Shown: one piece after another, positions 14,429 through 49,309 of the stretch
How the letters are laid out: each line of letters begins with the position of its first letter
How positions within the stretch are numbered: position 1 is the stretch's first letter
Source: Gallionella sp.
GTDB taxonomy: Bacteria > Pseudomonadota > Gammaproteobacteria > Burkholderiales > Gallionellaceae
Direction: 5' to 3'
DNA length: 56,260 nucleotides
Assembly (NCBI GenBank): GCA_030700315.1
Contig: JAUYJO010000077.1
Coordinates: forward strand, 1-56,260
Made by a program: the position numbers and the translations under genes
The notes under the pieces: generated by a model
What the model was told of the DNA's origin: nothing
Database searches by the model: none
Seen by the model: the letters and a program-made list of their open reading frames with translations, nothing else

Positions 14429-14477
14429 TGGGGTGGCTGATGGGACTCGAACCCACGACAACTGGAATCACAATCCA
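14429..14477 (-). other. 3' part of tRNA-His(GTG): island attachment site (att)
   Basis: On the minus strand these bases read as the tRNA-His 3' half: anticodon loop with GTG, the right anticodon stem, variable loop, T arm with GGTTCGAGTCCC, acceptor strand and CCA. Homology stops abruptly in the left anticodon stem, and the 5' half is replaced by the integrase leader. This is the expected structure of an attachment-site duplicate left when an island integrates into the 3' end of tRNA-His; the intact tRNA gene should lie at the other end of the island, outside the window. Confidence 0.88.
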
Positions 14478-14645
14478 CTAAAAACAGTATTCCCCGGCGT
14501 TGATTGCCATACCACAAGCGGGCTGGAAACCACTATATACAGGCACTTATTGAAATATACCCATTCAAATTGTGTTGATAAGTATTCCGGTTTATACTGC
14601 ATTCGTGGTGACATACTGGTGACATGTACTCGACAAGGTGGCAAT

Positions 14646-15968
14646 ATGGCAAACATAGTTAAAGCGGAAAAGGTGAAGCTGACAGCCGGGCGCATTGCTG
14701 CCTTCGGGTGCCCCAAGGGTAAGACACGGGCTTATTTGTGGTGTGATGAAGTGAAAGGCTTGGGCATACTCGCAACCCCTGCTGGTTCTAAATCTTACAT
14801 ATTTCAAGCCAAGGTTAAGGGGCAATCCATGCGTAAAACCATTGGCAGCGTGGGCGCGTGGAGCATTGCAGATGCCCAAAAGGAAGCCCGCCACCTGCAA
14901 ACCCTGATAGACCAAGGGCATGACCCGCGCCAATTGGACGCCGAGCAGGAAGCCGCCAAGGAAGCCAAAGTCGCCGCGAAACGTGAGCAGAAAGCCCGCG
15001 AAACGATGACAGTGGGCACGGCATGGGCTGAATATATAGCCGCCCGTAAGCCGTTCTGGGGGGCGCACCACTACGCTGACCATGAGGAGGTTATGCAACC
15101 CGGCGGGAGACAGCGGACGCGAAGCCACAAACTGACAGGGCCGGGCGCGCTTGCATCGCTGGTAACGGTTCGCCTTGTTGACCTGACCCCCGAGCGGGTG
15201 ACAGAGTGGGCGAAAGTAGAAGGCGAAAAACGCCCCGGGCGCGCCCGCCTTGCAAGCCGCCTGCTGACTGTTTTTTTAACATGGTGCACCGAACACCCGA
15301 CCTATCGGGAAATCGTGACCCGCAACCCGGCGAAAAACAAAGCCGCCCGTGAGTTGCTGGGCAAGCCAAAAAAGATAGATGACACCCTGCAACGCGAGCA
15401 ACTGCCCACGTGGTTCGCCGCCGTGAAGCAACTGGGCAACCCGGTTTTGTCGGCATACCTGCAAACCCTGCTGCTGACCGGCGCGCGCCCCAATGAACTG
15501 ACCGGGCTGCGCTGGGAAGATATGGATTTTCAGTGGGGCAGCATGACTATCAGAGACAAGATAGAAGGGCTGCGCGTCATACCCCTGCCGCCCTATCTGG
15601 CGCACCTACTGGCCGCCTTGCCACGTCGGAATGAATGGGTATTCTCAAGCCCCGGCGCTGCCTGTGGACACCTGACCGACCCGCACCCGGCGAATTACCG
15701 AATATGCGCCGCCACTGGCATGAACGTAAGCCTTTACGGGTTGCGCCGGAGCTTTGCCAGCTTGTGTGAATGGATAGAAATGCCCACAGGTATCTCCGCG
15801 CAGATACAAGGACACAAGCCCAGCGGGGTTAGGGAAAAGCACTATATCCGCCGCCCGCTTGACCTGCTGCGTATGTGGCACGTCAAGATCGAAGCGTGGA
15901 TATTGGAGCAAGCCGGAATCGAGTTTGTGCCAGCGAAAGCGAAAGCGGGTTTGCGGGTGGTGGCATAA
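14646..15968 (+). CDS. P4-type tyrosine integrase with DUF4102-like N-terminus
   Basis: Site-specific tyrosine recombinase of about 440 residues that would integrate and excise the island at tRNA-His. The N-terminal domain (SKSYIFQAKVKGQSMRKTIGS, then an ALTLIDQGHDP-like hinge) is the arm-binding DUF4102 type of P4/CP4 integrases. Catalytic residues are visible: ARPNEL (first Arg), LRRSF (second Arg, with Tyr where His is usual), GHKPSG (His) and the nucleophile Tyr in KHYIRR. ATG at 14646 is chosen for the RBS AAGGTGG; the open frame runs upstream into the attachment site. It is the first gene right of the tRNA fragment, in the usual orientation. Confidence 0.92.
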   Translation: MANIVKAEKVKLTAGRIAAFGCPKGKTRAYLWCDEVKGLGILATPAGSKSYIFQAKVKGQSMRKTIGSVGAWSIADAQKEARHLQTLIDQGHDPRQLDAEQEAAKEAKVAAKREQKARETMTVGTAWAEYIAARKPFWGAHHYADHEEVMQPGGRQRTRSHKLTGPGALASLVTVRLVDLTPERVTEWAKVEGEKRPGRARLASRLLTVFLTWCTEHPTYREIVTRNPAKNKAARELLGKPKKIDDTLQREQLPTWFAAVKQLGNPVLSAYLQTLLLTGARPNELTGLRWEDMDFQWGSMTIRDKIEGLRVIPLPPYLAHLLAALPRRNEWVFSSPGAACGHLTDPHPANYRICAATGMNVSLYGLRRSFASLCEWIEMPTGISAQIQGHKPSGVREKHYIRRPLDLLRMWHVKIEAWILEQAGIEFVPAKAKAGLRVVA

Positions 15969-16299: not shown

Positions 16300-16587
16300 A
16301 CTTCGCTAACCTTTGTTCGCATTTTCGATTACCTCGACAAGATCGTGACTGAGTTGGAGTTAGTCGAAGCTCAATGCCAGAAGCCGCAATAAGACGTTCA
16401 TGTCCAGCATTATCGTGAGCTGTGCTAATCTCACGCTCCATGCAATTAACCAACGAATATTTTTTCCACATCATCATCGGCGGTCAACATTACGTGCGGG
16501 GCTGGAGCCTTGTCGCCAGTTGCCGTGTCCGTAACGTGTTGGAGAAAGAAGTATGCATGACTGCTCGGTAGACGTGATTGAGAGCCA

Positions 16588-19242
16588 GTGATTATGCCAG
16601 CTCCACCCCTGAACCTACTTCTAAAAATGGCCGTTGTTGCTGGTGTGGAAACGGCGGTGCGACTGCATATCAGTCGTGGCGATGATCTGGATGCCCGCGA
16701 CGGTGGCGGCTTGACCCCGCTCATGTTGGCAGCAAGTCGCAATAAGGCCAATATCTGCCGTCTTCTACTGGCGTCTGGCGTCAACCCTGATTTGGTGGAT
16801 CCTTCCGGTCGAAATGCTCTTGCCATTGCCCATGCGACTGGAGCCTTCGATGCTGCTGCCGTTATTATCGAAGATGCCACTGCTCGACAAGCGCAACAGC
16901 TAGCCACGAACGAATCTGTTGTCGAAGATTACTATACTCACCCAAGGCGAGTAGATACGTTGGCAACGCCTATCCCGATCATTGACACCATCGAACCACA
17001 GGTTGCTGCTCGGGAATCATCTTTGGAAGAACCTGACGTCGGTCAGGGTAATAGAACGGGAAACCCTTCTTTTCAAAATATCGCAACAGGGAACGATGGT
17101 GGATGTCTGGAGGAAGTCGAGATATCCAGTCGAGTGGATATGACGTTGGAATATTCCGACGAGGAAGAAAGCTGCCTTGACCTTTCTGCCTGGGTTATGG
17201 AGGAGGATGGACCACCTCCCAAAGGTGACGAAACTTTGGTCGAGGCGGCAACAAAACTCCACCAGGTTATCACCCGGCATAAGCCTGTAGATATGGCAGA
17301 GGACTGGGAGGATTTCGATCTCTTCCTTCCCGAGTTTGCGGTTCCATTGCTCCAAGTCGACGATGAGGAAGGACGCATCGGCCTGCGCCATCTCTTTTTG
17401 AGAGCGCTCAGGGAAGGCAGCGTCCCCGAAATAACAGTTCAGGCTCTTTGTGATGGTGCGGACGGTTCGCCAAACGATGATGTGGAAGACCTGCTAAATC
17501 TGGTTCTTCACGAACTGGGGGCGGAAACGGATGAGAGGTTGGAGATGGAGGTTCCTTATCTTTCCCCGAATGTCAGCGCCGAAGAGGAGAATGACCTATC
17601 CGATGCACTCGCATTCATGGGCAATGTTTCGTCGGGCAGGAACGAGCCTCTCAGGTTCTACCAACGGAACATTGGGAAAGTAAAACTGCTGACGCGGGAA
17701 GGCGAGATAGTGATCGCCAAGCGCATCGAGGAGGGTCTCAAACACATGATCGAGGCCGTGTCCGCCTGTCCAGTGCTCATTGCCGCAATACTTACTCTGG
17801 CCGACAAGATTGCCCGTGATGAGTTGAGCATAGATGAGGTGATCGACGGGTTCATTGATGTTGAATCCGAAAATATGGAACCTATCCTTGATGAGGTTGG
17901 GGCTGAAGATGATGACGAGGATGGCACGGCACTCGCTGAGGCATATCTCGCCCAGATCAGAGTAAATGCGCTGAAACATTTCGCGGTCATCTCCGACCTG
18001 TTCACCGGGATGTGTGACGCTTATAAAGATTTCGGCTACAACAGCCAGCAATACACCGCGCTGCAAAAACAGATATCCAGCGAGTTGATTCTGTTTCGCT
18101 TCACCACCAAGCAAGTTCATGCTCTGTGCGGTACCATTCGAAAATTGGCGGAAGAGGCTCGTGAACTTGAGCGCGATATGATGGAGTTATGCGTTGCCAA
18201 GGCGAATATGCCGAAGGCGGACTTCCTCAAGGTCATTTCGCGGAACGATGAAAATCTTGGCTGGATGAGGCAGGAAATTTCAGCGAACAAGCCCCACAGT
18301 GAATCGTTGGCCTTTTTTCAGGATGCCATCATCGAACAGCATAGGAAGATGCTCGAACTGCAACAGCGCATCGGAATACCCATAAAGGTTCTTGAAGAGG
18401 TCGATGGGCAGTTGTCGGACGGTGAAGCAAAAGTTCTGAGAGCCAAGCGCGATATGATCGAAGCCAACCTGCGCCTAGTGATTTCCATCGCCATGAAATA
18501 TAACAACCGGAGCCTGCCATTCCTCGACCTTATCCAGGAGGGAAATATCGGGCTGATGAATGCTGTGGACAGGTTCGAATATCGTCTTGGCTACAAGTTC
18601 TCGACCTACGCCACTTGGTGGATAAGGCAGGCGATAACCCGCTCCATAGCAGACAAGGCTCGCACCATCCGTCTTCCGGTACATATGGTAGAGACCATCA
18701 ACAAGATGGAACGCATCTCACGGCAGACCCTGCAGCGGACGGGTTCTGAACCAGATGCGGCGACTCTTGCGGTGGAGATGGAGATGCCCAAGGAAAAAAT
18801 TCTCAAGATATTGAATATCGCCAAAGAGCCAATCTCGTTGGAGACACTGGCGGGCGATGAGGATGGCTCGTCCTTGAGCGATTCCATCGAAGATGAGAGC
18901 CTGATGCCGCAGCTCGAAGTTCTGGCGCAAGAAAGCTTGGCAAGAATCGTAAAGGAGGTTCTCGACTCGATAGAGCCGCGAGAAGCCCAAATATTGCGTA
19001 TGCGCTTCGGTATCGATATGGACGACGATCACACGTTGGAGGAGGTTGGCCAGCAGTACGACGTCACGCGCGAGCGTATCCGCCAGATCGAAGCCAAGGC
19101 GTTGCGTAAGCTGAAACATCCATCCCGTTCGGAAAAGTTGGAAAGCTTTCTGACGGAAAAAACGAGGGAAGATATCCGATTGAAAAAGTCGAAGGACTTA
19201 TTGGCGGTGGTAACGGACGAGTCTCTGGAATGTCCCCAATGA
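16588..19242 (+). CDS. Ankyrin-repeat / sigma-70 (RpoD-like) fusion
   Basis: About 884 residues. Residues 8-100 form two to three ankyrin repeats ([20 protein letters not shown] is one unit). An acidic linker follows, with a segment near 255-320 recalling sigma region 1.1. Region 1.2 ([20 protein letters not shown]) starts at about 353, a non-conserved region follows, region 2 starts near 618 ([20 protein letters not shown]), 2.4 has [14 protein letters not shown] near 675, then region 3, and region 4.2 has [20 protein letters not shown] near 816. Regions 2 and 4 are almost identical to housekeeping RpoD, so consensus-type promoters should be recognised. Such a complete primary-type sigma factor on an island, fused to ankyrin repeats, is unusual. 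Start is GTG at 16588 or ATG at 16594. Its end overlaps the MORC-type gene, so the two are coupled. Confidence 0.9.
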
Positions 19243-20741
19243 ACCGGAACGCGAACGCCAGAAATGCTCCGCCACGTGCTGGGGCGATGCTGGAAGCATT
19301 GAGGGGGCTCGGCTATACGACCGCCGCAGCCTTGGCCGACATCGTCGATAACAGCATATCGGCAGGAGCTACCGAGGTCTTGATCAATTTTTCTTGGAAC
19401 GACACATCAAGCTCGGTTTCGGTGCTCGATAACGGTTGCGGGATGGATGATGCCGAACTGGAAAGTGCTATGCGTCTGGGAGACATAAGCCCTCTGGAAA
19501 AGCGTGACCGGACGGATCTGGGGCGGTTCGGGATGGGGCTGAAAACTGCCTCCTTCTCTCAATGCCGCAGATTGACGGTGGCATCCGTTAAAAACGGTGC
19601 AACGTCCTGCCTGCGATGGGACCTGGATGCGTTGGCGGCATCCCCCGAGGCTGGATGGCTTCTGTTCGAAGGTCCGTCTCCCGGATCCGAAACATTACTG
19701 GCTCCCATCTCCCAGATTAAATTGGGCACTCTAGTCCTTTGGGAGATTTTGGACCGGATAGTAACCAAGGGCTACGTTGCCAACGACTTCAACGATCTGA
19801 TAGACCGCGTTGAGTCGCATTTCGCCATGGTGTTCCACCGTCTCATTCAGGACCCCAATGCACGACTGAAGATTCTGCTGAATGGGAAACGGATTATGCC
19901 TTGGGATCCTTTCTTGACGGGGCATGCAGCGAAAACGTGGGACTCACCCATCGCTAGGACTACTACGGAGTCGGGAATTGTCGAGGTCGAATGCCACGTG
20001 TTGCCACACCGCGACAAGCTTTCACCCGCCGAGTTCGATGCCGGTGGAGGACCCGAAGGATGGACTGCCCAACAGGGCATCTACATCTACCGCAACGAGC
20101 GCCTTCTGGTGGCCGGTGGCTGGCTGGGTTTGGGGCAAGGACGGGCGTGGAATCGAGAGGAAGCCTATCGTCTGGCGCGCATCCGTCTCGACATTCCGAA
20201 CACGGCAGATGCCGAGTGGAAGATCGATATCCGCAAATCTACGGCCAAGCCTCCAGTCTCTATGCGTCTTTGGCTAACAAGGCTGGCGGAGGATACCCGC
20301 GAACGTGCCAGAAAAGTTTTTGCTTACCGCGGAAGTCCGACTCCCGTGTCCGGTGGTGGCACCGTCGAACAGGCTTGGCGTATAGAGCGTTCAAGAACCG
20401 GGGCGAGATACAAGATCGATGAAAAGCATCCCGTCGTATCCGCTGTGCTCGACGGTGCAGGTGAACTTCTTCCTATGGTGAAGGCCATGTTGCGCGTCGT
20501 CGAGGAGACCGTTCCAGTTCAGCGGATCTGGCTGGATACCGCTGAAAACAAGGAAACGCCGCAAACGGGATTTGTAGGAGAGCCCTCCGAAAAGGTTGTT
20601 GCGGTATTGAAAACGATCTACGCGGATATGATTGGACGACGGGGGATGTCCCCCGCCAACGCCAAAAAAATGCTTGCCGTCACCGAGCCCTTCCAGAACT
20701 ATCCGGGACTTGTAGCCGGACTGCAGGACGAACCAGCCTAG
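19239..20741 (+). CDS. MORC-type GHKL ATPase
   Basis: Cytoplasmic GHKL (HSP90/MutL-like) ATPase of about 500 residues. The ATP site is clear: N-box [15 protein letters not shown]1 DNGCGM, and G2 lid [13 protein letters not shown], all within the first 115 residues. Fold and length match the prokaryotic relatives of eukaryotic MORC proteins, which are known from restriction-modification-like loci. After the ATPase there is a transducer-like domain with [17 protein letters not shown]. The ATG at 19239 gives an ATGA overlap with the sigma gene stop; an ATG at 19230 is also possible. The following Z1 gene starts 27 bases after the stop. Role inferred: ATP-driven clamp or remodeller in the defence complex. 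Confidence 0.88.
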
Positions 20742-20768
20742 GGCGGGCAATAAATCAAAGGACGTGCT

Positions 20769-23636
20769 ATGACGGGAACCCACAAAACTTTCATCAATGT
20801 CGTCAGCATAGCCCAGACCCTTCTGTTTGGGGAAAAGGACAGATCGGCCATCACACCCACACTCATCGCGGAAAAAGTCGATCTGGCTGGCGGTATCGTA
20901 AATGCTGCAGGATTGGGAGAGTTCGATAGGCAGGCCGCCATCAGTGAACTCATCCGCAGATTCAGCCTTTGGATAGGGCAGGATTCGACCCTGCACGATG
21001 CGGTCGGCCACGAGCACTGGCTCATAGCGTCTAGGAAAAAGGACTGGCGCTACTGGCAGCGGTATCAGGGTTATCTGGAAAGGAAGATGTCCGCAACGGC
21101 GGTCGAAGCTCTGGACGTATCCACCGATAAGATACTGGAGCTGCTCGAAGACCCGGAACGCGAAGGCTCGTGGGATCGGCGTGGCTTGGTTGTAGGACAC
21201 GTTCAGTCGGGCAAGACGGGAAACTATTCAGGACTCGTCTGTAAGGCAGCGGATGCTGGTTACAAAATCATCATCGTGCTGGCGGGCCTGCACAACAATC
21301 TGCGCTCCCAAACCCAGATCCGTCTGGAGGAAAGTTTTTTAGGCTACGAGACTTCCTTTGCCGGTGAAGTCGGCAAACCCGTAGGTGTGGGCGAGATAGA
21401 CACTGACTCGAAAATCCAGCCGAACTGTGCAACGACGAGGGCCGACAAGGGCGATTTCACCACCAAGGTTGCCAAGCATCTCGCTATCTCTCCCGAGCAA
21501 AGACCGTGGCTGTTCGTCGTGAAGAAGAACAAGACCGTCCTTGAGAGGCTGTTGAAATGGATACGCAGTCACGTTGCCGATGCCACCGACTCGAAGAGCG
21601 GTCGCCGGTTCGTATCCAACCTGCCACTGCTTCTGATCGACGACGAGGCCGACCACGCATCTGTCGATACGGGCGAGCAGTTGTTCAACCCCGACGGCAC
21701 GCCTGACGACGAGCACCAGCCGAAGGCCATAAACAGCCGCATCCGTAAGATTCTGCACTCTTTTGCGAAATCGGCCTACGTCGGATATACGGCCACACCC
21801 TTCGCCAATATTTTCATTCACCGCCGCAACGAGACGACCGAGGAAGGGCCCGACCTTTTTCCGCAATCCTTCATCATCAATCTTGCGGCACCTTCCAATT
21901 ACGTGGGCCCCGCCCGCGTGTTCGGTTTGAATTCACCCGACGGACGGATTGGCGGATTGCCCCTGACGCGAGATATTTCTGACCATGTAAGCAAGGTCGG
22001 TTCGGGCGGATGGATGCCGCCTCAGCACAACAAGGAACACATCCCTCTCCACGAAGGACTCGACGCAGTGCCTCCCTCGATGCGGGAGGCGATCGGAGCT
22101 TTCGTTCTGGCTTGCGCCGCCCGCATCTGTCGGGGGCAGGATTCTGAGCACTCCTCAATGCTGATCCACGTTACGCGGTTGAATCTCGTTCAGAAAGAGG
22201 TGTATCGGCAGGTCGAAGAGATCGTTAAAAGGATGAGGCAGCGGATAACCAGGGGCGTGGACCACGAGGCTTTGCTTGCCGAACTTCATAACCTTTGGAA
22301 TAACGACTTCCTGCCTACCTGCGCGGAAATTACGTCACTCCTCCCCGAAGAGGAGTGCCATACCTTAACGCCGACTTGGGAGCAGATTCTTGCGGTTCTG
22401 CCAGACGTTCTGTCTGATATCGATGTCAGGATGATCAACGGCACGGCCAAGGATGCGCTCGACTACGCCGAGCACCAAGGCAAGGGATTGAAGATCATCG
22501 CCATTGGTGGTGACAAGCTCTCGCGCGGTCTCACCCTGGAAGGGTTGTGCGTCAGCTATTTCATCAGAACCTCCAAGATGTATGACACGCTGATGCAGAT
22601 GGGGCGATGGTTCGGCTACCGTCCGGGCTACATCGATCTTTGCCGTCTCTACACGACTGCGGAACTTGTCGAGTGGTTCGGCCACATCGCCGATGCCTCG
22701 GAGGAACTCCGTGAAGAGTTTGATGCCATGGTCGAAAGTGGCGGGACGCCGAAAGATTACGGGCTCAAGGTTCAGTCCCATCCAATCCTGATGGTCACCT
22801 CTCCGCTCAAGATGCGTACTGCGGAAACCCTGTTGCTTTCGTACAGCGGAAATCTCGTCCAGACCGTCGCCATGTTTCGCGATCCTGCCATTTTGCGCCG
22901 CAACCTGGATGCGACGAATCGCCTGCTGACCGCTATGGGCGAGCCTGACGAACGTGGGCCGACAAGGGTTCGCGATGGAGACCCAGACAAATGGAAAAGC
23001 TCTTTTTTGTGGAACGGGGTGGGGGCAAACCTGATTACCGATTTCCTGACTTCGTATTCGACACATCCGAAGGCACCCAGAGCGAACAGCTCGGTTATCG
23101 CCGAGTTTGTGGGCAGAATGGTCGCAGCCGGAGAGCTGACATCTTGGACCGTTGCCTTATTGGGGGAGGGGCAAGCGACGAACCCATACGTCTTCGCGAA
23201 CGGACTGAATGTGGCGATGCCGTACAGGGCCGACACCAAAGTGGAGGGCAGCTACTCGATCGGTGTCCTGACGGAGCCTGGCGACGAAGCCATCGACCTT
23301 GATTACCCCGCTTGGAAGAAGGCGTTGGACTGGACTCTTTCGGAGTGGAAACCCGATCCTGCACGCAATCGGCTTATACGTCCGATACGTCCGAGCGGGA
23401 AGAAGGTACGCAATGTGCGGGGTCTGGGTCGGGACGACATCAATGCATCACCCGAGCGCGGTGTCCTGCTGCTGTACCCGCTTTCCCCAAAAGGTGCCGG
23501 AGAGTCCGTATTGAACGTCTGGAGCGAGCCCATCATGGCCTTTGCCATCAGTTTTCCTTCCAGCAATTCGGCTGTGAAGGTGGAATACAAAGTAGATCAT
23601 CTTTTGTGGGAGCAAGAATATGGCCCGGCCGACTGA
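20769..23636 (+). CDS. Z1-domain superfamily II helicase-like ATPase
   Basis: Large ATPase of 955 residues. Walker A is GHVQSGKTGNY near residue 145, Walker B is LIDDEADHAS near 290, and motifs V/VI appear as GGDKLSRGLTLEGL (about 580) and QMGRWFGYRPGY (about 608), the last being the Z1-domain hallmark. Z1 proteins are associated with GHKL ATPases and restriction-like nucleases in phage defence loci. A C-terminal domain of about 300 residues has no clear family. Its stop overlaps the start of the following nuclease gene by 17 bases. DNA translocation or remodelling is inferred from the fold; it has not been shown for this sequence. Confidence 0.9.
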   Translation: MTGTHKTFINVVSIAQTLLFGEKDRSAITPTLIAEKVDLAGGIVNAAGLGEFDRQAAISELIRRFSLWIGQDSTLHDAVGHEHWLIASRKKDWRYWQRYQGYLERKMSATAVEALDVSTDKILELLEDPEREGSWDRRGLVVGHVQSGKTGNYSGLVCKAADAGYKIIIVLAGLHNNLRSQTQIRLEESFLGYETSFAGEVGKPVGVGEIDTDSKIQPNCATTRADKGDFTTKVAKHLAISPEQRPWLFVVKKNKTVLERLLKWIRSHVADATDSKSGRRFVSNLPLLLIDDEADHASVDTGEQLFNPDGTPDDEHQPKAINSRIRKILHSFAKSAYVGYTATPFANIFIHRRNETTEEGPDLFPQSFIINLAAPSNYVGPARVFGLNSPDGRIGGLPLTRDISDHVSKVGSGGWMPPQHNKEHIPLHEGLDAVPPSMREAIGAFVLACAARICRGQDSEHSSMLIHVTRLNLVQKEVYRQVEEIVKRMRQRITRGVDHEALLAELHNLWNNDFLPTCAEITSLLPEEECHTLTPTWEQILAVLPDVLSDIDVRMINGTAKDALDYAEHQGKGLKIIAIGGDKLSRGLTLEGLCVSYFIRTSKMYDTLMQMGRWFGYRPGYIDLCRLYTTAELVEWFGHIADASEELREEFDAMVESGGTPKDYGLKVQSHPILMVTSPLKMRTAETLLLSYSGNLVQTVAMFRDPAILRRNLDATNRLLTAMGEPDERGPTRVRDGDPDKWKSSFLWNGVGANLITDFLTSYSTHPKAPRANSSVIAEFVGRMVAAGELTSWTVALLGEGQATNPYVFANGLNVAMPYRADTKVEGSYSIGVLTEPGDEAIDLDYPAWKKALDWTLSEWKPDPARNRLIRPIRPSGKKVRNVRGLGRDDINASPERGVLLLYPLSPKGAGESVLNVWSEPIMAFAISFPSSNSAVKVEYKVDHLLWEQEYGPAD

Positions 23637-24624
23637 CGAGTTCGTTCTTGCTTGGGAATCCCTTGCGGGCCAATCAACGGAAGATGGATGGCGAAGCATA
23701 CCGGTCGCGTGCGCGGGTTCCTGTCATCTAATGGCGGCCAGGCGATTTCCTGAGAATGTGGAATCGCTGCTTGCGCATTTCCCATCCGCGAAGATTCCGG
23801 TCGCTGAAAAGTTGCCCGAGGGTAGAGGCTTCACCATCGAGCGGGTGGATCCTCACGGTGATGGAGAAACTTGGTTGGCATTGACTAGAAGTGATTCGGG
23901 CAGCATCGAGCTATTCGTCGCGATGGTGGGCGATGTAGTCGGGGTGTTGGACATTGAGGCGGATTCGGATGATGAGCGGCTACTGACGATATTCCTCGGC
24001 AGGGTGCGGGCTTGGCAGGAGTTCATGCGCCGTGGTGCTCAGGGGCTGGAGCCCGAGGCCGAAATCGGCCTGATCGGAGAGTTGTCGTTTCTGGCATGCA
24101 TGGTTGAAGCTGGTATTTCGACATCGCTGGCGGTGGAGTCTTGGGTGGGACCGCTCGACGGGATTCAGGACTTCGAGGTGGGTACCGGCGCAGTGGAGGT
24201 GAAGGCGACCGTTTCGACGGAAGGTTTTCCAGCCAAGATAGGCTCGCTCGAACAGTTGGATGATTCCATCCGACAACCGCTATTCATCGCTGGAATCCGA
24301 CTTTCCCAAACCGAGTCGGGCCAGAACCTGCCGGAATTCGTCGCCCGCATCCGACGACTTTTGATTGGCGGCATGGGGGCAGAACAACTATTTTCGGACA
24401 GGCTTCTGGCCGCAGGATATTTTGATGCACACGTCGACAGGTATCCGCGTCGTTTCTCCGTAGCGGGGATCAGGATCATTGAGGTGGGTGATGGATTTCC
24501 CCGCTTGACCCACGCAACGGTGCCGATGGGTATCAGAAGAACAAAGTATGAGATAGATCTCGATAGGATTCTCGGGGAGAGTCTTGGGCCTGAAACTGTA
24601 TTTAAGAAACTGGGAGTGCTTTAA
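23620..24624 (+). CDS. PD-(D/E)XK motif protein (DUF4420 family)
   Basis: Predicted DNA endonuclease of 334 residues. LIGELSFL near residue 150 supplies a Glu, WVGPLDGIQDFEV near 175 supplies the Asp and AVEVKAT near 192 the E-x-K, together giving the restriction-endonuclease-fold active site typical of DUF4420 proteins. Members sit next to Z1 and GHKL ATPases. The start overlaps the Z1 gene by 17 bases and only two bases separate its stop from the AIPR gene, so all are one operon. Likely the DNA-cutting component, by inference. Confidence 0.85.
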   Translation: MARPTDEFVLAWESLAGQSTEDGWRSIPVACAGSCHLMAARRFPENVESLLAHFPSAKIPVAEKLPEGRGFTIERVDPHGDGETWLALTRSDSGSIELFVAMVGDVVGVLDIEADSDDERLLTIFLGRVRAWQEFMRRGAQGLEPEAEIGLIGELSFLACMVEAGISTSLAVESWVGPLDGIQDFEVGTGAVEVKATVSTEGFPAKIGSLEQLDDSIRQPLFIAGIRLSQTESGQNLPEFVARIRRLLIGGMGAEQLFSDRLLAAGYFDAHVDRYPRRFSVAGIRIIEVGDGFPRLTHATVPMGIRRTKYEIDLDRILGESLGPETVFKKLGVL

Positions 24625-24626
24625 AA

Positions 24627-26396
24627 ATGGACTTATCCGAATTCTTGCTGGAAACACAGGCCGAAGTCAGGTCACAGATGAGCGATGGCAATCCCTTCGC
24701 GGAAATGGTGTTTTCCGAGGTGGTCATGCAGCATATGGTGGAAATTGGAATGACGTTCGAGCCCGTCGTCTGCCACTTCACCGGGAAATTCGGTAATGCC
24801 GTCCTGCGTTTGAGCGGTTACGCGATGTCGGACGAGGCCGATCAGTTGGATCTGTTCGTGAGCCTATACGAGGGGGTCGACGAACTTACTCCCGTCCCCG
24901 ATGCGGATACCAAAATGGCAGTTGAGCAGTGCATACGCTTCTTAAGCCTCTGCGCCGAAGGCAAGATGGCACCGAAACTGGATCCGTCTGACGAGGTTCT
25001 TTCGCTGGCGCTCACCATTCAGGAGATATACAACGGTCTCGAACAGGTAAGGGTTTACGTCCTGACCGATAAAATCGCCAAAGCCAAGAGTTTCAAAACC
25101 CGGGAGATAGCCGGAAAATCCGTTCGCCTTGAGGTCATGGACATCGAGCGTCTTTACCGCCACTGGTCCGAGGGTAAGCCGCGCGACGAACTGGTTATCG
25201 ACTTCATCAAGGTGTCGGGTTCCCCTTTGCCCTGTGTATACGTTCCCGGCGCACCCAACGAATACGATTACGCCCTTACTGCGATTCCTGGTGAAGCACT
25301 GCGGTTCGTCTACGAGAAATTCGGTTCCAGGCTGCTGGAGGCCAATGTTCGCTCGTTCCTGAGCGTGAAGGGCAAGGGTGTGAATGCGGGTATACAGAAT
25401 ACCCTGCGCACGAATCCAGGACACTTCATGGCCTACAACAACGGGATCGTGCTCGTGGCCGATGAAGTTCGATACGAAAAAACCGATGATGGAGCCATGG
25501 GCATCGCTTGGATGAAAGGCATGCAGATAGTGAACGGCGGGCAGACTACGGCCTCGCTTTATTTCGCAAAGAAGAAGTTTCCCGAGACGGATCTGAGCAG
25601 GGTGCGTGTACCCGCGAAAATCATCGTAATGCGCGAGCAGGATCCAGCCAAAGAGGAGGCGTTGGTCTCCGACATCTCACGTTTCGCCAACAGTCAGAAT
25701 GCGGTCAGACAGTCCGATCTTTCCGCCAACAAACCGTTCCACGTCGAGGTTGAGAAACTCTCACTTACTGTTTATTGTCCCGACGGCATCGGTAGATGGT
25801 TCTACGAACGGGCTGCGGGAAGCTACAACACGCTTCTGAGTCGCGAGGGAACTACACCAGCCAAATTGAAAGTTCTGAAGGATGCCATCCCGCCGTCCCG
25901 GAAAATCACCAAGACGGATATGGCCAAATACATCAACGCTTGGGATAGAAAACCCGATGTGGTAAGCCTCGGCTCCCAGAAAAACTTCGATCGCTTCATG
26001 GCATCACTTTCGGGGGAAGAGGGTGAGGAGACACCGATGCCTGGTGTGGCGGAATACAAGGTGATGATAGCCAAAACCAAGATATTTAAAGACACGCAAA
26101 AACTCGTGCGCCCCATGTTTCAAGCATTCCAAGCAAATGTGGCCGCCTACGTCGTATCGGTTCTGGCCGACAGGCTGGGGGATAGGATCGACCTCGACCG
26201 CATTTGGCTCCGTCAAAGCGTGTCTGAGGAGTTGCTCTCGCAGATATCCATTTGGGCAAGGGAAGTGAACGACGTACTCCATAGAACTGCGGCAGGCCGG
26301 ATGGTTTCCGAGTGGGCCAAGAAACCCGAATGTCGAGATGCCGTTCTAGGTGCGACCTACTCGGAGCCTGCTGAAAATATTCCAGAGGTGCGTTGA
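24627..26396 (+). CDS. AIPR family abortive-infection-type protein
   Basis: Protein of 589 residues with the AIPR domain named after phage abortive infection proteins. Visible signatures are LLEANVRSFL, MAYNNGI, the glycine-rich MQIVNGGQTTASL near residue 300, and ISRFANSQNAVRQSDLSANK. No catalytic activity is established for the family; the NGGQT and Asn/Arg-rich motifs point to a nucleotide or nucleic acid function. Last gene of the plus-strand sigma-MORC-Z1-nuclease-AIPR operon. It converges on vsr with a gap of 89 bases. Confidence 0.88.
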   Translation: MDLSEFLLETQAEVRSQMSDGNPFAEMVFSEVVMQHMVEIGMTFEPVVCHFTGKFGNAVLRLSGYAMSDEADQLDLFVSLYEGVDELTPVPDADTKMAVEQCIRFLSLCAEGKMAPKLDPSDEVLSLALTIQEIYNGLEQVRVYVLTDKIAKAKSFKTREIAGKSVRLEVMDIERLYRHWSEGKPRDELVIDFIKVSGSPLPCVYVPGAPNEYDYALTAIPGEALRFVYEKFGSRLLEANVRSFLSVKGKGVNAGIQNTLRTNPGHFMAYNNGIVLVADEVRYEKTDDGAMGIAWMKGMQIVNGGQTTASLYFAKKKFPETDLSRVRVPAKIIVMREQDPAKEEALVSDISRFANSQNAVRQSDLSANKPFHVEVEKLSLTVYCPDGIGRWFYERAAGSYNTLLSREGTTPAKLKVLKDAIPPSRKITKTDMAKYINAWDRKPDVVSLGSQKNFDRFMASLSGEEGEETPMPGVAEYKVMIAKTKIFKDTQKLVRPMFQAFQANVAAYVVSVLADRLGDRIDLDRIWLRQSVSEELLSQISIWAREVNDVLHRTAAGRMVSEWAKKPECRDAVLGATYSEPAENIPEVR

Positions 26397-26485: not shown

Positions 26486-26920
26486 TCAAACCTCCACCAG
26501 TTTTTTCAGGCGCCGCTGCAGAATTCCAGATACCCTGCCCGGCACAGCTTCAGCATTGTGTTTGATCTCACACTCCCATATGACGATGGGAAGCCAGCCT
26601 GCTTTTCGAAGAAGAGAAAGATTATTTTTATCCCGCATGACATTCCCCTCAAATTTCTGCTCCCAGAAATCTAAACGGGATTTCGGCGTGTAAGCATATT
26701 TGCATCCCTGATGCCGATGCCAGAAACAGCCATGAACAAAGATTACAGCCCTGTATTTTGGGAGAACAATATCCGGTCTTCCTGGAAGGGTCTTATTCGC
26801 AATTCTGAATCGGTATCCCATGCGATGCAGCATCGAGCGGACAGCCAGCTCGGGCTTTGTATTCTTTCCTCGGATGCGGGACATATTCCAGCTGCGTTTT
26901 TCCGAGGTCAACGTATCCAT
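26486..26920 (-). CDS. vsr: Very short patch repair endonuclease Vsr
   Basis: Complete 144-residue Vsr, which nicks 5' of T in T:G mismatches arising from deamination of 5-methylcytosine. RSWNMSRIRGKNTKPE is the N-terminal signature; LPGRPDIVLPKYRAVIFVHGCFWHRHQGC holds the catalytic Asp, the His pair and zinc ligands. It follows the cytosine methyltransferase gene by seven bases on the same strand, the standard dcm-vsr arrangement. It converges with the AIPR gene. Confidence 0.95.
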   Translation of the reverse strand: MDTLTSEKRSWNMSRIRGKNTKPELAVRSMLHRMGYRFRIANKTLPGRPDIVLPKYRAVIFVHGCFWHRHQGCKYAYTPKSRLDFWEQKFEGNVMRDKNNLSLLRKAGWLPIVIWECEIKHNAEAVPGRVSGILQRRLKKLVEV

Positions 26921-26927: not shown

Positions 26928-28463
26928 CTACAGCCGCTTTAAAATATCATGGACTATTGCAGCAACCTGCATGGACAACAGCGGCGGCACAGCATTACCA
27001 ACCTGATGATACTGCGATGTCCTGCCACCTTCGAATTTGTAGCTATCCGGGAATGTTTGCAGCCTTGCCGCCTCTCTGACAGTCAGGCTGCGACATTGGG
27101 ACGGATCATAATGAATGAAATAATGCCCATCCTTAGAAATATGGGAAGTGATTGTAGTGGAAGGTCGCCCCCTGACCTGCACCCTGAAACGATCTGAAAA
27201 GTGACTATTCTGCACACCCTCCTGCACATTCTGGTGTGCGGGAAGAAGCGTCTTCGGAAAATCACTCAGATGAATGGATTTCCCGTTAGCTGCCGCGTAG
27301 GCAGATACAAACAGGTAGCGATGCAGATCACTCCTCATGTGACCCCGACCTGCATGGTTGGTCACCACCCCATCGCAGCCATGCCGATACCAAGCCGGAA
27401 ATATTTTTGGGCTGCCGGTATAAGTCATAGATTCTGCTCCCGCCTTTAGCTCACGCTTCTGTATCGTCACCAAGGCTGTGTCAATCTTTTCGATTGTTTG
27501 AGCCAGGCTACCGCCTCGCCCTTTGCGATACCAGGCTTTTGAGGTTATCGAGTCAAGAATCTCACGCCAGAGTTCAAGTGTGTCAGGCTCTTTGGAGACA
27601 GCGCTGCGTATCTTCGGTAGATCACCGATTGCTTGGGCAACAGTGGTCGCTTCCGATTCCTGGAGCGTTTTTGGTGTGATATGAATATCCTCCCGAATAC
27701 CCAGAATAAGCATGCGGTGCCGTGCCTGCGGGATGCCATATTTTTCGGCTTTCACCAGAAAGTCCTCCGGCTCACATTTTTCAGGGGGTTTGTTGTCCAC
27801 CAGCGAAAACAGCCTATAGCCGAGGCCAGAACTCCGTCCTTTGACTGTTACGCCAGGCTTCCGCAGATCGCTTAAGATACTCTGGATAATTTTTTTGCCG
27901 GAATGCTGAGCGGAAAGTATTCCCTTCACATTCTCCATCACGAACACCGGTGGACGGTGATCCGCGATGATTCGCAGATACTCTTTGTAAAGAAAATGGC
28001 GCTCGTCGGCCTCAAAATCAGGATTGGTACTCCGCATGCGCGCACGGCCGACAAGTGAATAAGCCTGGCAGGGTGGCCCACCGACCAGCACCCATTTTTC
28101 GCAGCCATTCAATCTCTGGCTGATGAGGCTTTTCACCTCATGCGCTGGGGTCTTGCCGAGTTCGATGCACTGCGCCTCTTCAGCCGCAGCCTTAGCTTGC
28201 TGAGGATAAAAATCAAATAACTCCGCCTTGGTAATCTCCCCCTTGGCATAAGACCAGTATTCCGGCGGGATTTTTTCGGGATCAAACTGGCGGTAGAAAC
28301 TACGCAGCAGCAATGTGCTGTGCGCGGTCGGGTCTTTTTCAATCGAAAGAGCGAGCTTGAATGAAGGCTTTTCTGCATCATGACCAAAGGCAGCAAAACC
28401 CTCACCCAGTCCTCCCGGACCGGCGAAAACATCGATTACTTTATAGGGTTCTTTGCCAGCCAT
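26928..28463 (-). CDS. dcm: DNA (cytosine-5-)-methyltransferase
   Basis: C5-cytosine methyltransferase of 511 residues. Motif I is DVFAGPGGLGEGF, the catalytic Cys is in GGPPCQAYS near residue 130, motif VI is MENVKG near 177, and motifs IX-X are QVRGRPSTTITSHISKDGH with REAARLQTFPD and VGNAVPP. It is larger than Dcm because of a longer target region. The recognition sequence is unknown. It probably marks self DNA for the facing MORC/Z1/nuclease operon, which is an inference from position. Divergent from the HTH gene at 28695. Confidence 0.93.
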   Translation of the reverse strand: MAGKEPYKVIDVFAGPGGLGEGFAAFGHDAEKPSFKLALSIEKDPTAHSTLLLRSFYRQFDPEKIPPEYWSYAKGEITKAELFDFYPQQAKAAAEEAQCIELGKTPAHEVKSLISQRLNGCEKWVLVGGPPCQAYSLVGRARMRSTNPDFEADERHFLYKEYLRIIADHRPPVFVMENVKGILSAQHSGKKIIQSILSDLRKPGVTVKGRSSGLGYRLFSLVDNKPPEKCEPEDFLVKAEKYGIPQARHRMLILGIREDIHITPKTLQESEATTVAQAIGDLPKIRSAVSKEPDTLELWREILDSITSKAWYRKGRGGSLAQTIEKIDTALVTIQKRELKAGAESMTYTGSPKIFPAWYRHGCDGVVTNHAGRGHMRSDLHRYLFVSAYAAANGKSIHLSDFPKTLLPAHQNVQEGVQNSHFSDRFRVQVRGRPSTTITSHISKDGHYFIHYDPSQCRSLTVREAARLQTFPDSYKFEGGRTSQYHQVGNAVPPLLSMQVAAIVHDILKRL

Positions 28464-30717: not shown

Positions 30718-31479
30718 CTAAACCACCGAGACGATCTTAGTATTGACCAAGGATCGGAGATGTTCTCCAAGCAATTGAGGGATTTTCCCTCTCGTCATAA
30801 GCACTCCTGCTTCCATGTTTTTTTCCATAGCAAAGCCGGTCAAATTTGCACTGGTGATAAAACAGATAGATTCGTCTGCGACAGCGACCTTTGCATGCAC
30901 CTTGCCGTCTAAAAACGGCTCACCCTTATCCTGCCAGGCATAAATTTTGGCAAGTGGAACCAAGTTTTTCATCTTTCCAATCACATCAATGTTGATACTA
31001 CCACCGTGCCCCTGTGATGATTCAAGGAGCATAGATATAAGCACCCCGCGATCGCTGGCTGCATTGAGCGCTTTGACTATGCCGGATACGTCGTAGGCAA
31101 CAAAACTCGTGATGAACAAGGTTGATTTGGCCGCATTGATCACTTGCAATAGCGCCTGCTCCGTTCGTCTGGCGGAAACGACAGGCGTGGTTGGCCCTGT
31201 CCAGACAAGTTCGGTGGACTGTTCGGTTGCAGCCTTTGTATACACATAGCTGGCAGCGAGCAGCATAGATGCAAGCTCATCTGGACTGACGGCATGTGAC
31301 TGCCAAGCCTCGACCAACTGATCAATGACACCTGACGCAATCGGTGTTCCGACTACCCCCCTGAGTGCTGAGAGGGCTTTGCTCGCATCGGTCCCTCGAA
31401 TGCGTGAAGCGATGGCGTCAACTTTACCCGGGGAAACGAGAAAAACAACGGCTGAGATAGCTTCTAACAACTTCTGCAT
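30718..31479 (-). CDS. drmC: DISARM protein DrmC, phospholipase D-like
   Basis: About 253 residues with one phospholipase D-type HxK motif (VHAKVAVADESICFITSANLTG) near the C-terminus and a Glu shortly after (NMEAGV). DrmC is the PLD-family member of DISARM and in the studied system was dispensable for defence. The start at 31479 lies one base after the drmB stop. This is the final gene of the operon. The single HKD motif implies a dimeric active site, as in other small PLD proteins. Confidence 0.85.
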   Translation of the reverse strand: MQKLLEAISAVVFLVSPGKVDAIASRIRGTDASKALSALRGVVGTPIASGVIDQLVEAWQSHAVSPDELASMLLAASYVYTKAATEQSTELVWTGPTTPVVSARRTEQALLQVINAAKSTLFITSFVAYDVSGIVKALNAASDRGVLISMLLESSQGHGGSINIDVIGKMKNLVPLAKIYAWQDKGEPFLDGKVHAKVAVADESICFITSANLTGFAMEKNMEAGVLMTRGKIPQLLGEHLRSLVNTKIVSVV

Positions 31480-31480
31480 A

Positions 31481-33346
31481 TCAAAAACCTTTGAAGAACG
31501 CAGCATCAGCGCATTCGAGTGTTGGCACCAACAATGATCGATCCAAATAGCGGTTACCCCGCTCACATGAGGTTTCTGCCACCAAACTGCATGCATGACA
31601 TGCCGCGCCATGCAGGGATCGGTCTTTCTCCGGGTTATGCTCAGAGCAGAGAGGATCTGATGAACAAATTTTCGAACGGCTCAGTGCTTGTTCCAACAAA
31701 CGTCCAAGATTCTCCGGCTTGCCAAGATCGACGAGACCACCGAGAGTCCCATCTGAATCGGCAGCTGCGGTGTAGATCAGGATACCCGCCTGAGCTCGTT
31801 CGCCGGAGGTGTCCGCATAAATTCGCTCACGAATACTTGCCGCGTTGTAACCGCACTCCAACGCCAGCTCTCGAATCAATAGATGAGAGAGTGTATGGAG
31901 CATGGCATAGCGAATGCCAGGATAGCCCTCGTTGGGATCAAGATGGCGTGAATTGCGCCACCCTTTATGACCACCGCGCAGCATCTGGCCAACTTTCTTG
32001 ACTGCGGCCAACTCCTCCCACGCAACAAGTGCCGGCTCGTTGAATTGGATGAAGATGCCTTCACCATGAACTTGGTTGGCTGGAACCCAATCCAACTTGC
32101 CACGCGACAGGCTGGCCATCTGTGGCCGTTCATCAGGATCGCCAGACTCTTCGGGGGCTTCCACCCGTGTAAAGCCCAGCAGGGCATTTACCTCACGCAA
32201 CCGCTCGAGAAGGAGAACTCGGCTGACGTGTGCCGAAAGACCCGGCGGAGTTCCAACCTTCTTGCTCATAAAATGCGGGTAATCGGTCGGCGGGTTGGCT
32301 TCCGTCAACACATCCCATTCGGGTGCTTTGATGTCGGCATCCCCAACGACTTCCGGCTCTCCACCCGTGCGATGCCCTGCGATGGCAGACAAGATAGATG
32401 CGGAAGTGTACTTGTCGATTCCAGGTAAAGCACCAGTCTTCTTAAGCGTCTTCACTGCCACCGAGACATCGGCTTCGGATTCAAGCTCCTCAAAAAAATC
32501 CCATCCATCATGAATCAACTGACTGAGCGGATCTTTTGTCTGCGGAATCGCAAGCGCTGAAAGCGTGATCGGAAACCAGCTATTCGTGGCACCCAAAAGG
32601 ACAGCACGCGCATCTTCATCGCATTCAGTATCAAAATGATCCAAGTGTGGATGTCGCCCTCGACACGCCGGCAAGTTTTCCTTACCCGCCTTGCCGAATG
32701 CGTGAGCCATGCTCCTCGACGCAGGACAGGCATCGCACTTCACCCACAGATTCTCCGTCTGCAAAGAAGCTCCACTTTCGAAAAACCGCAGTGATCCCTT
32801 GCATGAGCTATTTCCTCCATGGACAAAATAGTGCCAAGGAAAATCATCCAGATGGCCGTTGCGACAGGCCAATAGGAAACGAGCGGGAACAGCATCGGCA
32901 TCCTTGGCGGGCTGATCACCTTTCGAACCGCAACACCCCTTGTGAACGAAGCGTGTCCTTTCTGGCCTGTATCGGTTTTCCTTGATTACAAACAGCCCAT
33001 TATCGAATGGAGACAGCAGACCGCACTTCACGCAGCGCATCCAGCGCGGAAACGGCCTGACCGGAACGCCGATATTAGCCTCAGCCGACCAGATATCTAC
33101 CAAATCACTCTTCTGGAATGGCGGCATCCGCAAATTTTCCACTTGCGGCCCGAGCACCTTCCTGACCGCAGCGAGTAACCGAGCCTCCTGGATCGGCTGA
33201 CAGCGATCTTTCTCCCATCGATCGATTCCCTGTGTGACGACCGACAGGCTCGGGAGGTCGATCAATGCGCCCGGGCCATAAGTCCAAAGCAACTGACTGG
33301 GCCTTACTTCCCCAACGGGCGTCTTATTGTTTGTAGTCGTAGTCAT
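31481..33346 (-). CDS. drmB: DISARM protein DrmB (DUF1998)
   Basis: About 621 residues. N-terminal half carries GEVRPSQLLWTYGPGALIDLPSLSV, the usual start of DrmB, and a zinc-ligand pair CVKCGLL. C-terminal DUF1998 has YAMLHTLSHLLIRELALECGY and a cluster of cysteines (CSSDPLC, ACHACSL, SCERGN) likely to bind zinc. DrmB pairs with the DrmA helicase to form the core of DISARM. The ATG at 33346 lies two bases after the drmA stop; earlier codons in frame would overlap drmA. Confidence 0.88.
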   Translation of the reverse strand: MTTTTNNKTPVGEVRPSQLLWTYGPGALIDLPSLSVVTQGIDRWEKDRCQPIQEARLLAAVRKVLGPQVENLRMPPFQKSDLVDIWSAEANIGVPVRPFPRWMRCVKCGLLSPFDNGLFVIKENRYRPERTRFVHKGCCGSKGDQPAKDADAVPARFLLACRNGHLDDFPWHYFVHGGNSSCKGSLRFFESGASLQTENLWVKCDACPASRSMAHAFGKAGKENLPACRGRHPHLDHFDTECDEDARAVLLGATNSWFPITLSALAIPQTKDPLSQLIHDGWDFFEELESEADVSVAVKTLKKTGALPGIDKYTSASILSAIAGHRTGGEPEVVGDADIKAPEWDVLTEANPPTDYPHFMSKKVGTPPGLSAHVSRVLLLERLREVNALLGFTRVEAPEESGDPDERPQMASLSRGKLDWVPANQVHGEGIFIQFNEPALVAWEELAAVKKVGQMLRGGHKGWRNSRHLDPNEGYPGIRYAMLHTLSHLLIRELALECGYNAASIRERIYADTSGERAQAGILIYTAAADSDGTLGGLVDLGKPENLGRLLEQALSRSKICSSDPLCSEHNPEKDRSLHGAACHACSLVAETSCERGNRYLDRSLLVPTLECADAAFFKGF

Positions 33347-33348
33347 AC

Positions 33349-46200: not shown

Positions 46201-46400
46201 CAGATGACCTCTAATTCCTCACCGAGGCCATCCTCGTCGATAGAAGAAAGAGACACGGCATTCTGCGATGATGAAGTCGATGTCAGTTTGGAGGAAACCA
46301 CATCCGCGACGACCCATTGGCGGCGGCGGACCTCAACCAACTGACCAGGCTCCGGCAACGCATGATAAGTTTCGGTGTTGTGCTTATTCAAGATTCCCAT
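43260..46400 (-). CDS. drmD: DISARM SNF2-type helicase DrmD
   Basis: SNF2/RapA-like ATPase of 1046 residues. N-terminal SH3-like segment, Walker A ADDVGLGKTIEAGL near 150, DEAH box VVDEAHNVAP near 262, and helicase C-terminal motifs ATDAASEGIDLQNH (about 585) and QRNGRIDRHGQ (about 617). DrmD marks class 1 DISARM. The start lies 11 bases after the stop of the truncated vsr gene. Ends with an ATGA overlap with drmMI. Confidence 0.9.
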   Translation of the reverse strand: MGILNKHNTETYHALPEPGQLVEVRRRQWVVADVVSSKLTSTSSSQNAVSLSSIDEDGLGEELEVIWEIEPGAQVIERAGLPSISGQDDSDTLEAFLDAVRWGAATNADRGFLQAPFRSGVSIEDFQLDPLVRAIDMARVNLLIADDVGLGKTIEAGLVIQELLLRHRARTVLIICPASLQEKWRIEMLEKFGLEFRVVDTAYIKQLRRDRGIHANPWTSYPRLIASMDWVKSGEGLCAMRDVLPAHASYPRKFDMLVVDEAHNVAPAAGANYALESQRTQFIRLISPHFQHRLFLTATPHNGYTESFTSLLELLDDQRFARNILPDEKQLSQVMIRRLKSDLVNANGEPLYAQRKLQALAVPYTNEEREIHRKLTDYCESRESNAEKGTGSFGTTFVNQLLKKRLFSSPSAFASTLEKHISSLSAGFQRKEKDSMSERILRKAILRVDEDYANDQEVENAQAEAVEEASRRCQPLTKDQQQTLNDLRQWAQRAKNQVDSKAQAIIDWLNANLKTNGQWNDRRVILFTEYRTTHQWMHEILASHGFGAERLAILHGGIDMKEREDIKAAFQASPKESAVRILLATDAASEGIDLQNHCNCLIHLEIPYNPNVMEQRNGRIDRHGQRQKEVLIWHPVDGGEQKSSAVGGHGDDIIRALRKLESMRADMGSVNPVIAPQMSGLIEGSIKDLDTRLAEAKIAKARRFVRAEREIKERVAKLHERLLETQHDYHLTPDHILIAVKSGLTLADKSPLESIELPGAPSGTVFRMPPLSGSWARCLEGLRHPHTQRIRPVTFDHAVASGRDDVVLVHLNHRLVQMCLRLLRAEVWAQDDVKKLHRVTVRTVPDDLIDGMAVVVISRLVITGGNHHRLHEELTVSGGYLRDQNFRREEGVARIQQWLDEGRSITASDSMFDALQTRFDRSQSSILQTVDARSKDRLKFLSNTLQGRKQHEIENITAVLNELEKTIRNELKKDQQPEQLSLFSEDEQTQLRRDTAALAARLDRIPTERIQEAQAIETRYANFVDRTFPVAVVFLIPESVVLGGRV

Positions 46401-46411
46401 GGGGTTGACAT

Positions 46412-46579
46412 TTACTTGATCAATCTTGTTGACGCGAACTGGACTTCGAAGCTGACTCGATATCGCAAGCCGATTCGATAAAGCGCCCGTCGTAGCTCAA
46501 TTTCTACCGCAGTTCCAGTTTGACGTACCTTGGTCATGCGACGGATGGCTTCAGGTGACGAGGGCTGTATGCGCGACAT
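46412..46579 (-). pseudogene. vsr: Truncated vsr gene
   Basis: Fifty-six residues from ATG at 46579 (65 from a GTG at 46606, which overlaps the methyltransferase stop). The first part, RRMTKVRQTGTAVEIELRRA then IGLRYRV, is the Vsr N-terminus, but the frame ends before the catalytic Asp, His and zinc ligands. It lacks any nuclease activity and lies exactly at the junction with drmD. A full vsr exists at 26486-26920 and might serve both methyltransferases. Confidence 0.75.
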
Positions 46580-46598
46580 AGAGGCGGCCCCCGTCCCG

Positions 46599-49288: not shown

Positions 49289-49309
49289 ACAGCTCACAAT
49301 TAGCACTCT

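Follow-up and report, generated by a model that had tools for sequence, protein, structure and literature searches.

The window analysed here is a stretch of 56,260 nucleotides from Gallionella sp. (Gallionellaceae; assembly GCA_030700315.1, contig JAUYJO010000077.1), i.e., contig C150 of the 243 contigs of a 3.5 Mb genome. Between positions 16588 and 26396 it carries five genes on the forward strand that Pfam, PADLOC and NCBIfam concordantly identify as mzaA, mzaB, mzaC, mzaD and mzaE (Table 1), which are the five genes of the MzaABCDE (MZA) system in the same order and with the same type of first gene, an ankyrin/sigma-70 fusion. By its gene content the operon is of MZA type and, by membership, of anti-phage type. 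Comparison with relatives shows that the product of the first gene, MzaA, has repeatedly taken in the body of the main sigma factor of its host lineage, as judged from sequence trees. The sequence-only reading of the window had proposed a sigma gene coupled to four defence-type genes, and this is borne out by a 13-nt overlap of mzaA and mzaB and by PADLOC calls for all five genes (E-values 3.6e-84, 1.3e-200, 0, 3.8e-60 and 7.4e-220 for MzaA to MzaE); the other junctions are a gap of 27 nt between mzaB and mzaC, an overlap of 17 nt between mzaC and mzaD, and a gap of 2 nt between mzaD and mzaE. It had regarded the GHKL/Z1/nuclease/AIPR/Dcm/Vsr set as known in outline; PADLOC names the system MZA, and the Vsr and Dcm-type genes, convergent to the operon behind mzaE, are recurrent neighbours. 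The NCBIfam scores of MzaA to MzaE were 586, 773, 1317, 390 and 953 bits relative to equivalog cut-offs of 800, 850, 1500, 420 and 1050, which define exact gene names and not membership of the MZA system; as none of the five genes reaches its cut-off, the operon is taken to be a diverged member.

The MzaA reading frame is intact, with a GTG start at 16588 and an ATG at 16594 that gives the 882-aa form of database entry P0001. Pfam detects Ank_2 (1.5e-10, residues 14–96), sigma-70 region 1.2 (4.7e-9), the non-essential region (3.1e-45), region 2 (4.3e-21), region 3 (9e-16) and region 4 (1.3e-18), so that the near-complete RpoD-like sigma factor with ankyrin repeats in front that had been read from the letters is confirmed by the model searches proposed as a check on it. 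The idea that the fusion is an undescribed protein was rejected, as PADLOC and NCBIfam identify it as MzaA; nor is the fusion special to the window, since the 683-aa MzaA of E. coli ET745 likewise has Ank_2 and sigma regions 2 and 4 by Pfam. Gao 2020 is reportedly the experimental source of the MZA system. The window protein shares regions 1.2, 2, 3 and 4 and the non-conserved region with RpoD, the group 1 sigma-70 factor, but differs from it in the N-terminal ankyrin repeats, a Trp-rich motif and an altered sigma finger. It passes the NCBIfam RpoD model (658 bits, cut-off 555) with a higher score than the MzaA model gives. Over residues 330–857 the sigma body shares 62% identity with the RpoD of its own genome, which is encoded separately (G000:C110), so MzaA is not the sole housekeeping sigma factor of the cell. 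Ankyrin repeats, a variable linker, the DLSxW motif, a segment resembling sigma region 1.1 and the sigma body follow one another in this order in relatives (30 MzaA, 56 N-termini and 69 full proteins aligned). In HHalign the middle module matched region 1.1 of 20 RpoD proteins with an E-value of 0.0017 at a probability of only 15%; the score of 25.7 exceeded all 200 column shuffles (maximum 20.3) and the reversed profile (18.2). A search of PDB by sequence with this module gave no sigma match, just weak unrelated ones. The middle segment, which the sequence-only reading does not mention, is likely, but not proven, to be a sigma region 1.1.

The sigma gene is a regular part of the operon. An MzaB alignment searched against genome contigs gave 283 confirmed relatives, and among the best 80 loci, which were used here, a sigma reading frame lies immediately upstream of mzaB in 76; the remainder are L096 and L098, which lie at contig ends, and the Pseudomonas loci L103 and L111, where a Dcm-type gene occupies that place. 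Ankyrin repeats, middle module and sigma body share a single reading frame in 70 of the 80 loci, and all five mza genes are present in 70, some loci being incomplete. Homologues of the fusion are therefore not found mostly outside such operons, the neighbourhood survey having been put forward with the sequence-only reading. When 398 genomes sampled evenly across the phylum were searched, MzaB-like genes were found in 21, the window's included, and a sigma reading frame stands upstream in eight of these, namely the seven best-scoring loci, among them the window, and L028, which is cut by a contig end. No sigma gene was found within the approximately 1.5 kb examined on either side in the other 13, which comprise 12 loci with low MzaB scores and one fragment (L033, with a close MzaC); Dcm or Vsr occurs in seven of them. 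The N-terminal module was detected at E 1e-20 in five of the 398 genomes, each time adjoining mzaB, and three of the eight sigma-bearing loci (in genomes G467, G368 and G423) gave no match at this threshold. With the N-terminal 360 residues as query, 595 of 7999 candidates scored reached E ≤0.001. In Cupriavidus pinatubonensis HN-2 (L108) a 351-aa protein without a sigma body (17098–18153; 33% identity over 318 aa), with ankyrin repeats, Trp motif and region-1.1-like segment, follows directly after mzaE. None of 21 matches to the N-terminal module, searched with one pattern in IMG/VR, was confirmed, and MzaB gave just three distant matches in phage records. A 3.9-kb mzaB-mzaC query was partly matched in 55 of 5426 E. 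coli genomes, and among the 10 matches listed coverage was 15–25%, all of it annotated mzaC.

Two types of sigma body were found among the 76 loci. In 62 there is no match to the RpoD non-conserved region, and these short-type proteins often have an extra C-terminal domain; the other 14, including the window, are of RpoD type. The window body is of full RpoD type with the non-conserved region, whereas E. coli MzaA and the 62 loci lack a match to it. A small C-terminal domain with the pattern GFxVEDxRxxGG...GFxxxPG recurs in many short-type MzaA and has no match in the window protein. Host RpoD sequences for comparison were drawn from the genomes that bear MZA and from relatives of the window. 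A quick tree of regions 2–4 (154 rows, with 26 of 119 database proteins picked and 11 long-branched MzaA excluded beforehand) scattered the RpoD-type bodies to several places among RpoD. The bodies of four loci that match the non-conserved region (L035, L038, L048, L051) nevertheless group with the short type, leaving RpoD-derived bodies in 10 of the 76 loci. A more careful tree of the full body, with 48 rows made up of 33 RpoD and 15 chosen RpoD-type MzaA, the four loci just named omitted, requires seven changes, all of which are forced by the starred branches. The RpoD that a body joins in this tree is from one of the Rhodocyclales for L094, from the respective genome itself for L101 and for L040, from Cupriavidus for L106 and L108, from Limnohabitans for L073 and L077, from Nitrosospira and Nitrosovibrio for L091, and from its own family for the window's group. 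A single MzaA clade was rejected by the approximately unbiased (AU) test (p-AU 0.0025; 3e-76 and 5e-6 for two subsets), which rules out a single capture. Among 13 host RpoD, that of the same genome matched best in 9 of 13 cases, a count not reached in any of 20000 permutations (L094 and L035, for which the own RpoD is missing, were left out). The misses are L106 and L038 (rank 2), L048 (rank 3) and L077 (rank 9), the last explicable by transfer of the operon together with the body, as the L077 operon is sister to that of L073. When all 72 RpoD were compared the own RpoD came first in 7 of 13; that of the window ranked third, two of the same family being closer, and that of L034, Candidatus Ferrigenium bremense (Gallionellaceae), ranked fourth. 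An assembly artefact was rejected, the gene being intact and captures being found also in records not marked as metagenome-assembled genomes (e.g., Cupriavidus pinatubonensis HN-2, complete chromosome 2; Nitrosospira multiformis; Rhodanobacter fulvus; Pusillimonas sp.). A long-branch artefact was likewise rejected, as the long rows L040 and L101 are placed with the short-branched RpoD of their own genomes, and L106 is placed with L108 and the RpoD of Cupriavidus. As far as the open-access literature searched shows, no case has been reported of a defence operon repeatedly capturing the housekeeping sigma gene.

The two halves of MzaA have separate histories. In a tree of the ankyrin and middle modules RpoD-type members are scattered among short-type ones (eight changes). 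At 13 RpoD-type loci, three of which belong to an older clade, distances of the N-terminus correlate with those of MzaB (r 0.86) and MzaE (0.92), and those of the body do not follow MzaB (0.08, p 0.22); at 52 short-type loci the body correlates with both MzaB (0.75) and the N-terminus (0.80). Identity to RpoD switches near the start of region 1.2 in all five proteins profiled. In L108 identity to the own RpoD is at most 0.30 before approximately residue 350 and 0.85–1.00 across most of the body beyond it, with 0.50–0.80 in parts of the non-conserved region; regions 2–4 differ from the own rpoD by a dN of 0.019 and a dS of 0.29, so this capture is comparatively young. By these comparisons the body follows the host and the N-terminus follows the operon. 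That MzaA has repeatedly swapped in the main sigma factor of its host suggests docking on the host transcription machinery, and with promoter melting and reading retained (see below) a protein whose body follows the host and whose head follows the operon has the look of an adaptor. It is therefore tempting to speculate, with a probability of roughly 0.4, that MzaA acts as an adaptor through which the Mza machine docks on the host polymerase at ordinary promoters. The sigma body would keep promoter melting and reading and bind host polymerase there, and the nuclease/ATPase machinery of the other Mza proteins would be docked through the MzaA N-terminus, both docking and trigger being steps that we infer.

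Repeated re-acquisition of host-lineage RpoD would also be expected if the body were bait that must resemble the current target in the host. Phage anti-sigma proteins would bind such a decoy and thereby free the nuclease complex, in analogy to integrated-decoy immune receptors, and the N-terminus would stay with the operon, as is observed. The promoter-contact residues make this quite unlikely. The residues compared were D403 and Q406, which bind core polymerase, F427, Y430, W433 and W434, which act in melting, and Q437 and R584, E585, R588 and Q589, which read the -10 element (Q437) and the -35 element (the other four). All groups are nearly or fully invariant among 72 RpoD, 65 RpoD-type and 128 short-type MzaA: W433, W434 and Q437 are present in 65 of 65 and 128 of 128 MzaA bodies of the two types, the four -35 residues in 64 of 64 and 125 of 125, and the least conserved site, Y430, in 118 of 128 short-type bodies. 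Since short-type bodies average 46% identity (37–65%) to the RpoD of the window genome in regions 2–4, this retention reflects selection and not recent copying. Bait would have no need of melting and -35 residues, yet they are kept at close to 100% even at approximately 46% RpoD identity; moreover, 62 of the 76 related loci lack a match to the RpoD-type non-conserved region, and region 4.1 is not specially conserved. The same residues bear on the idea of MzaA as an alternative sigma factor, which would turn on transcription of its own operon or of a defence regulon. Such a role would agree with the position of mzaA at the head of the operon, with the TGnTAATCT element in the conserved leader that precedes it, and with the departure of short-type bodies from RpoD at T440 and E458. 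No special class of promoter is evident, however, as the RpoD-type bodies come from housekeeping RpoD and keep the promoter-contact residues, and a promoter scan gave a single site, on the minus strand, where 0.6 were expected by chance; a private regulon is accordingly improbable. The leader alignments of the window with L067 and L034 extend into mzaA itself.

It is also conceivable that MzaA serves as a reserve housekeeping sigma factor: with RpoD disabled by an anti-sigma protein of a phage, it would sustain the transcription of host or defence genes, and the ankyrin half would time its release. Retention of core-binding, melting and -35 residues and the repeated recruitment of host-lineage RpoD are both compatible with such a bypass. 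Region 4.1 is a surface contacted by anti-sigma proteins. In L108, the capture closest to its own RpoD, seven of eight changes in regions 2–4 fall in region 4.1 (p 0.002 relative to the RpoD background share), but this share is not significant in P0027 (p 0.07), L091 or L094, and the relative rate of region 4.1 is 0.65–1.05 in 9 of 11 captures. A general acceleration of region 4.1 as a sign of escape from anti-sigma proteins was therefore rejected, it being raised in L108 and P0027 only. As partial deletion of the sigma finger in some RpoD-type MzaA, described next, would also be odd in a protein made for efficient transcription, a bypass function is considered unlikely.

Measured against the RpoD background, the sigma finger (region 3.2) evolves 1.6–2.1 times faster than the rest of the body in 8 of 11 captures. 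An LGDFIED-type motif occurs in 69 of the 72 RpoD, and only in 6 of 64 RpoD-type MzaA (L108, L091, L094, P0027, P0041 and P0053) and 2 of 125 short-type MzaA; the incomplete P0020 was omitted from the finger counts. Eight to nine finger residues are missing in 15 of the 64 RpoD-type proteins, all of them from the window's group, L034 included. A general loss of the finger was rejected after the RpoS control given below, leaving drift and partial deletion in these 15. According to the passages concerned in PMC5031556, region 3.2 touches template positions -3/-4 and obstructs the path of the RNA, deletion of residues 513–519 alters initiation pausing, and displacement of region 3.2 is proposed to drive promoter escape; the finger is described in PMC12445709, likewise in the passage concerned, as highly conserved in most sigma factors. 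The trimmed finger of some relatives would fit a sigma factor that is not built for efficient transcription. This invites a wider version of the adaptor reading in which MZA would be RNA-polymerase-guided immunity: the sigma factor would carry or hold the nuclease/ATPase at transcribed DNA, its body re-cut from host-lineage RpoD at one junction after region 1.1, and the drifting or trimmed finger would leave the polymerase parked or tracked and not released. As a whole this version is doubtful, but if true it would be, to our knowledge, the first defence whose platform for targeting or surveillance is a transcription holoenzyme, and an instance in which a mobile defence operon has captured an essential host gene time after time. 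The split histories of body with host and N-terminus with operon make the question of the MZA sigma factor directly testable. Its role received no account in the open-access literature searched, Gao 2020 lying outside that scope; the term mza is absent from PMC9122126 and PMC8565338, and the terms sigma and ankyrin are absent from Iyer 2008. The sequence-only reading, for its part, knew of no described primary-type sigma factor leading such an operon, and this does not stand, as the gene is mzaA, already named a sigma factor, with citation of Gao 2020, in the relevant passage of PMC9523054.

A number of observations weigh against the docking of MzaA on polymerase as an adaptor. First, body and host RpoD distances correlate only weakly (r 0.43, p 0.004, 13 loci, with a Rhodocyclales RpoD standing in for that of L094), and the value falls to a non-significant 0.20 at 10 loci when the three of the older clade are removed, which we attribute to uneven rates after capture. 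P0027 stands apart from the window's group in the quick tree and inside it in the careful one, and among the 65 RpoD-type sequences close relatives of the window predominate. Second, W433, W434, Q437 and the -35 residues are also found in five of five RpoS, so they indicate a working sigma-70-type readout and not RpoD specificity. T440 and E458, absent in RpoS, are kept in 56 and 62 of 65 RpoD-type bodies but only in 72 and 85 of 128 short-type ones, and in 9 of 11 captures regions 2.3–2.4 outpace the RpoD background (relative rate 1.3–5.3 on a background of 0.017). Third, the window finger (LSDSIED) does not have the RpoD motif but is of full length with nothing deleted. The motif is absent from all five RpoS controls as well, and MzaA fingers are acidic (mean D+E 8.1 in RpoD-type and 7.1 in short-type, relative to 8.9 in RpoD and 6.6 in RpoS), so loss of the motif alone does not equal loss of function. 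Fourth, contact of MzaA with MzaB to MzaE is something we infer solely from shared inheritance, and the two Pseudomonas loci have mzaB-led operons with a Dcm-type methylase in the place of mzaA, which means that MzaB to MzaE may function without it. Finally, the constraint on the ankyrin repeats comes from the single locus pair of window and L034, in which dN/dS is 0.10 for both ankyrin repeats and MzaB, 0.31 for the linker and 0.26 for the middle module. As the ankyrin value equals that of MzaB and lies below linker and middle module, it is easier to reconcile with a conserved partner than with a phage protein that keeps changing. The earlier proposal that the ankyrin repeats sense a phage or host protein, with the sigma factor then redirecting polymerase, is in this way supported in part: the architecture and the operon stand, and for the sensed partner a conserved protein is favoured over a changing phage one.

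Table 1. Features of the mza operon and its immediate neighbours (window positions).
Feature	Position	Strand	Evidence
Conserved leader upstream of mzaA, with TGCTAATCT at 16423	16399..16593	+	70–75% identity to upstream DNA of L067 and L034
mzaA, ankyrin/sigma-70 fusion with RpoD-type body	16588..19242	+	Pfam, PADLOC, NCBIfam
Ank_2 ankyrin repeats of MzaA	16627..16875	+	Pfam; kept in alignments of 30, 56 and 69 relatives
Trp-rich conserved motif DLSxW...AEDWxDF..FLPE	17179..17349	+	MzaA alignments
Sigma region 1.1-like segment (with GAETDER)	17371..17547	+	Profile comparison with RpoD region 1.1
Junction of MzaA-type N-terminus and RpoD-type sequence (approximate)	17611..17673	+	Identity profile
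Sigma region 1.2	17647..17742	+	Pfam
RpoD non-conserved region (Sigma70_ner)	17767..18363	+	Pfam; no match in 62 of 76 related MzaA
Sigma region 2 (core binding, -10 melting/reading); W433/W434 equivalents at 18616–18621	18454..18666	+	Pfam
Sigma region 3	18691..18903	+	Pfam
Altered sigma finger (region 3.2), LSDSIED relative to LGDFIED in host RpoD; length and acidity unchanged	18850..18894	+	
Sigma region 4; R584, E585, R588, Q589 (E. coli numbering) kept; TRERIRQ at 19066–19086	18958..19119	+	Pfam
mzaB, GHKL/MORC-type ATPase	19230..20741	+	Pfam, PADLOC, NCBIfam
mzaC	20769..23636	+	Pfam, PADLOC, NCBIfam
mzaD, PD-(D/E)XK protein (DUF4420)	23620..24624	+	Pfam, PADLOC, NCBIfam
mzaE, AIPR protein	24627..26396	+	Pfam, PADLOC, NCBIfam
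Vsr mismatch endonuclease, common neighbour	26486..26920	-	Pfam, NCBIfam; 60 of the 80 related loci match Vsr
Dcm-type cytosine-5 methylase, common neighbour	26928..28463	-	Pfam, NCBIfam; 57 of the 80 related loci match Dcm

A tyrosine integrase with an Arm-DNA-binding domain (14433–15968, forward strand) lies immediately before the operon, and this adjacency suggests that the MZA operon may be part of a mobile island; ARAGORN detected no tRNA gene within the window. A DISARM-like set is located near the operon on the reverse strand (30718–47642) and comprises DrmC, DrmB, DrmA, a PDC-S39 protein, DrmMI, DrmD and a DrmMII-type methylase. The reverse strand from 48020 to 52994 encodes an HTH regulator, a staphylococcal-nuclease-like protein, a UmuC-like polymerase with an S24 peptidase, and a 5'-nucleotidase with a domain resembling cyclic-phosphate receivers.

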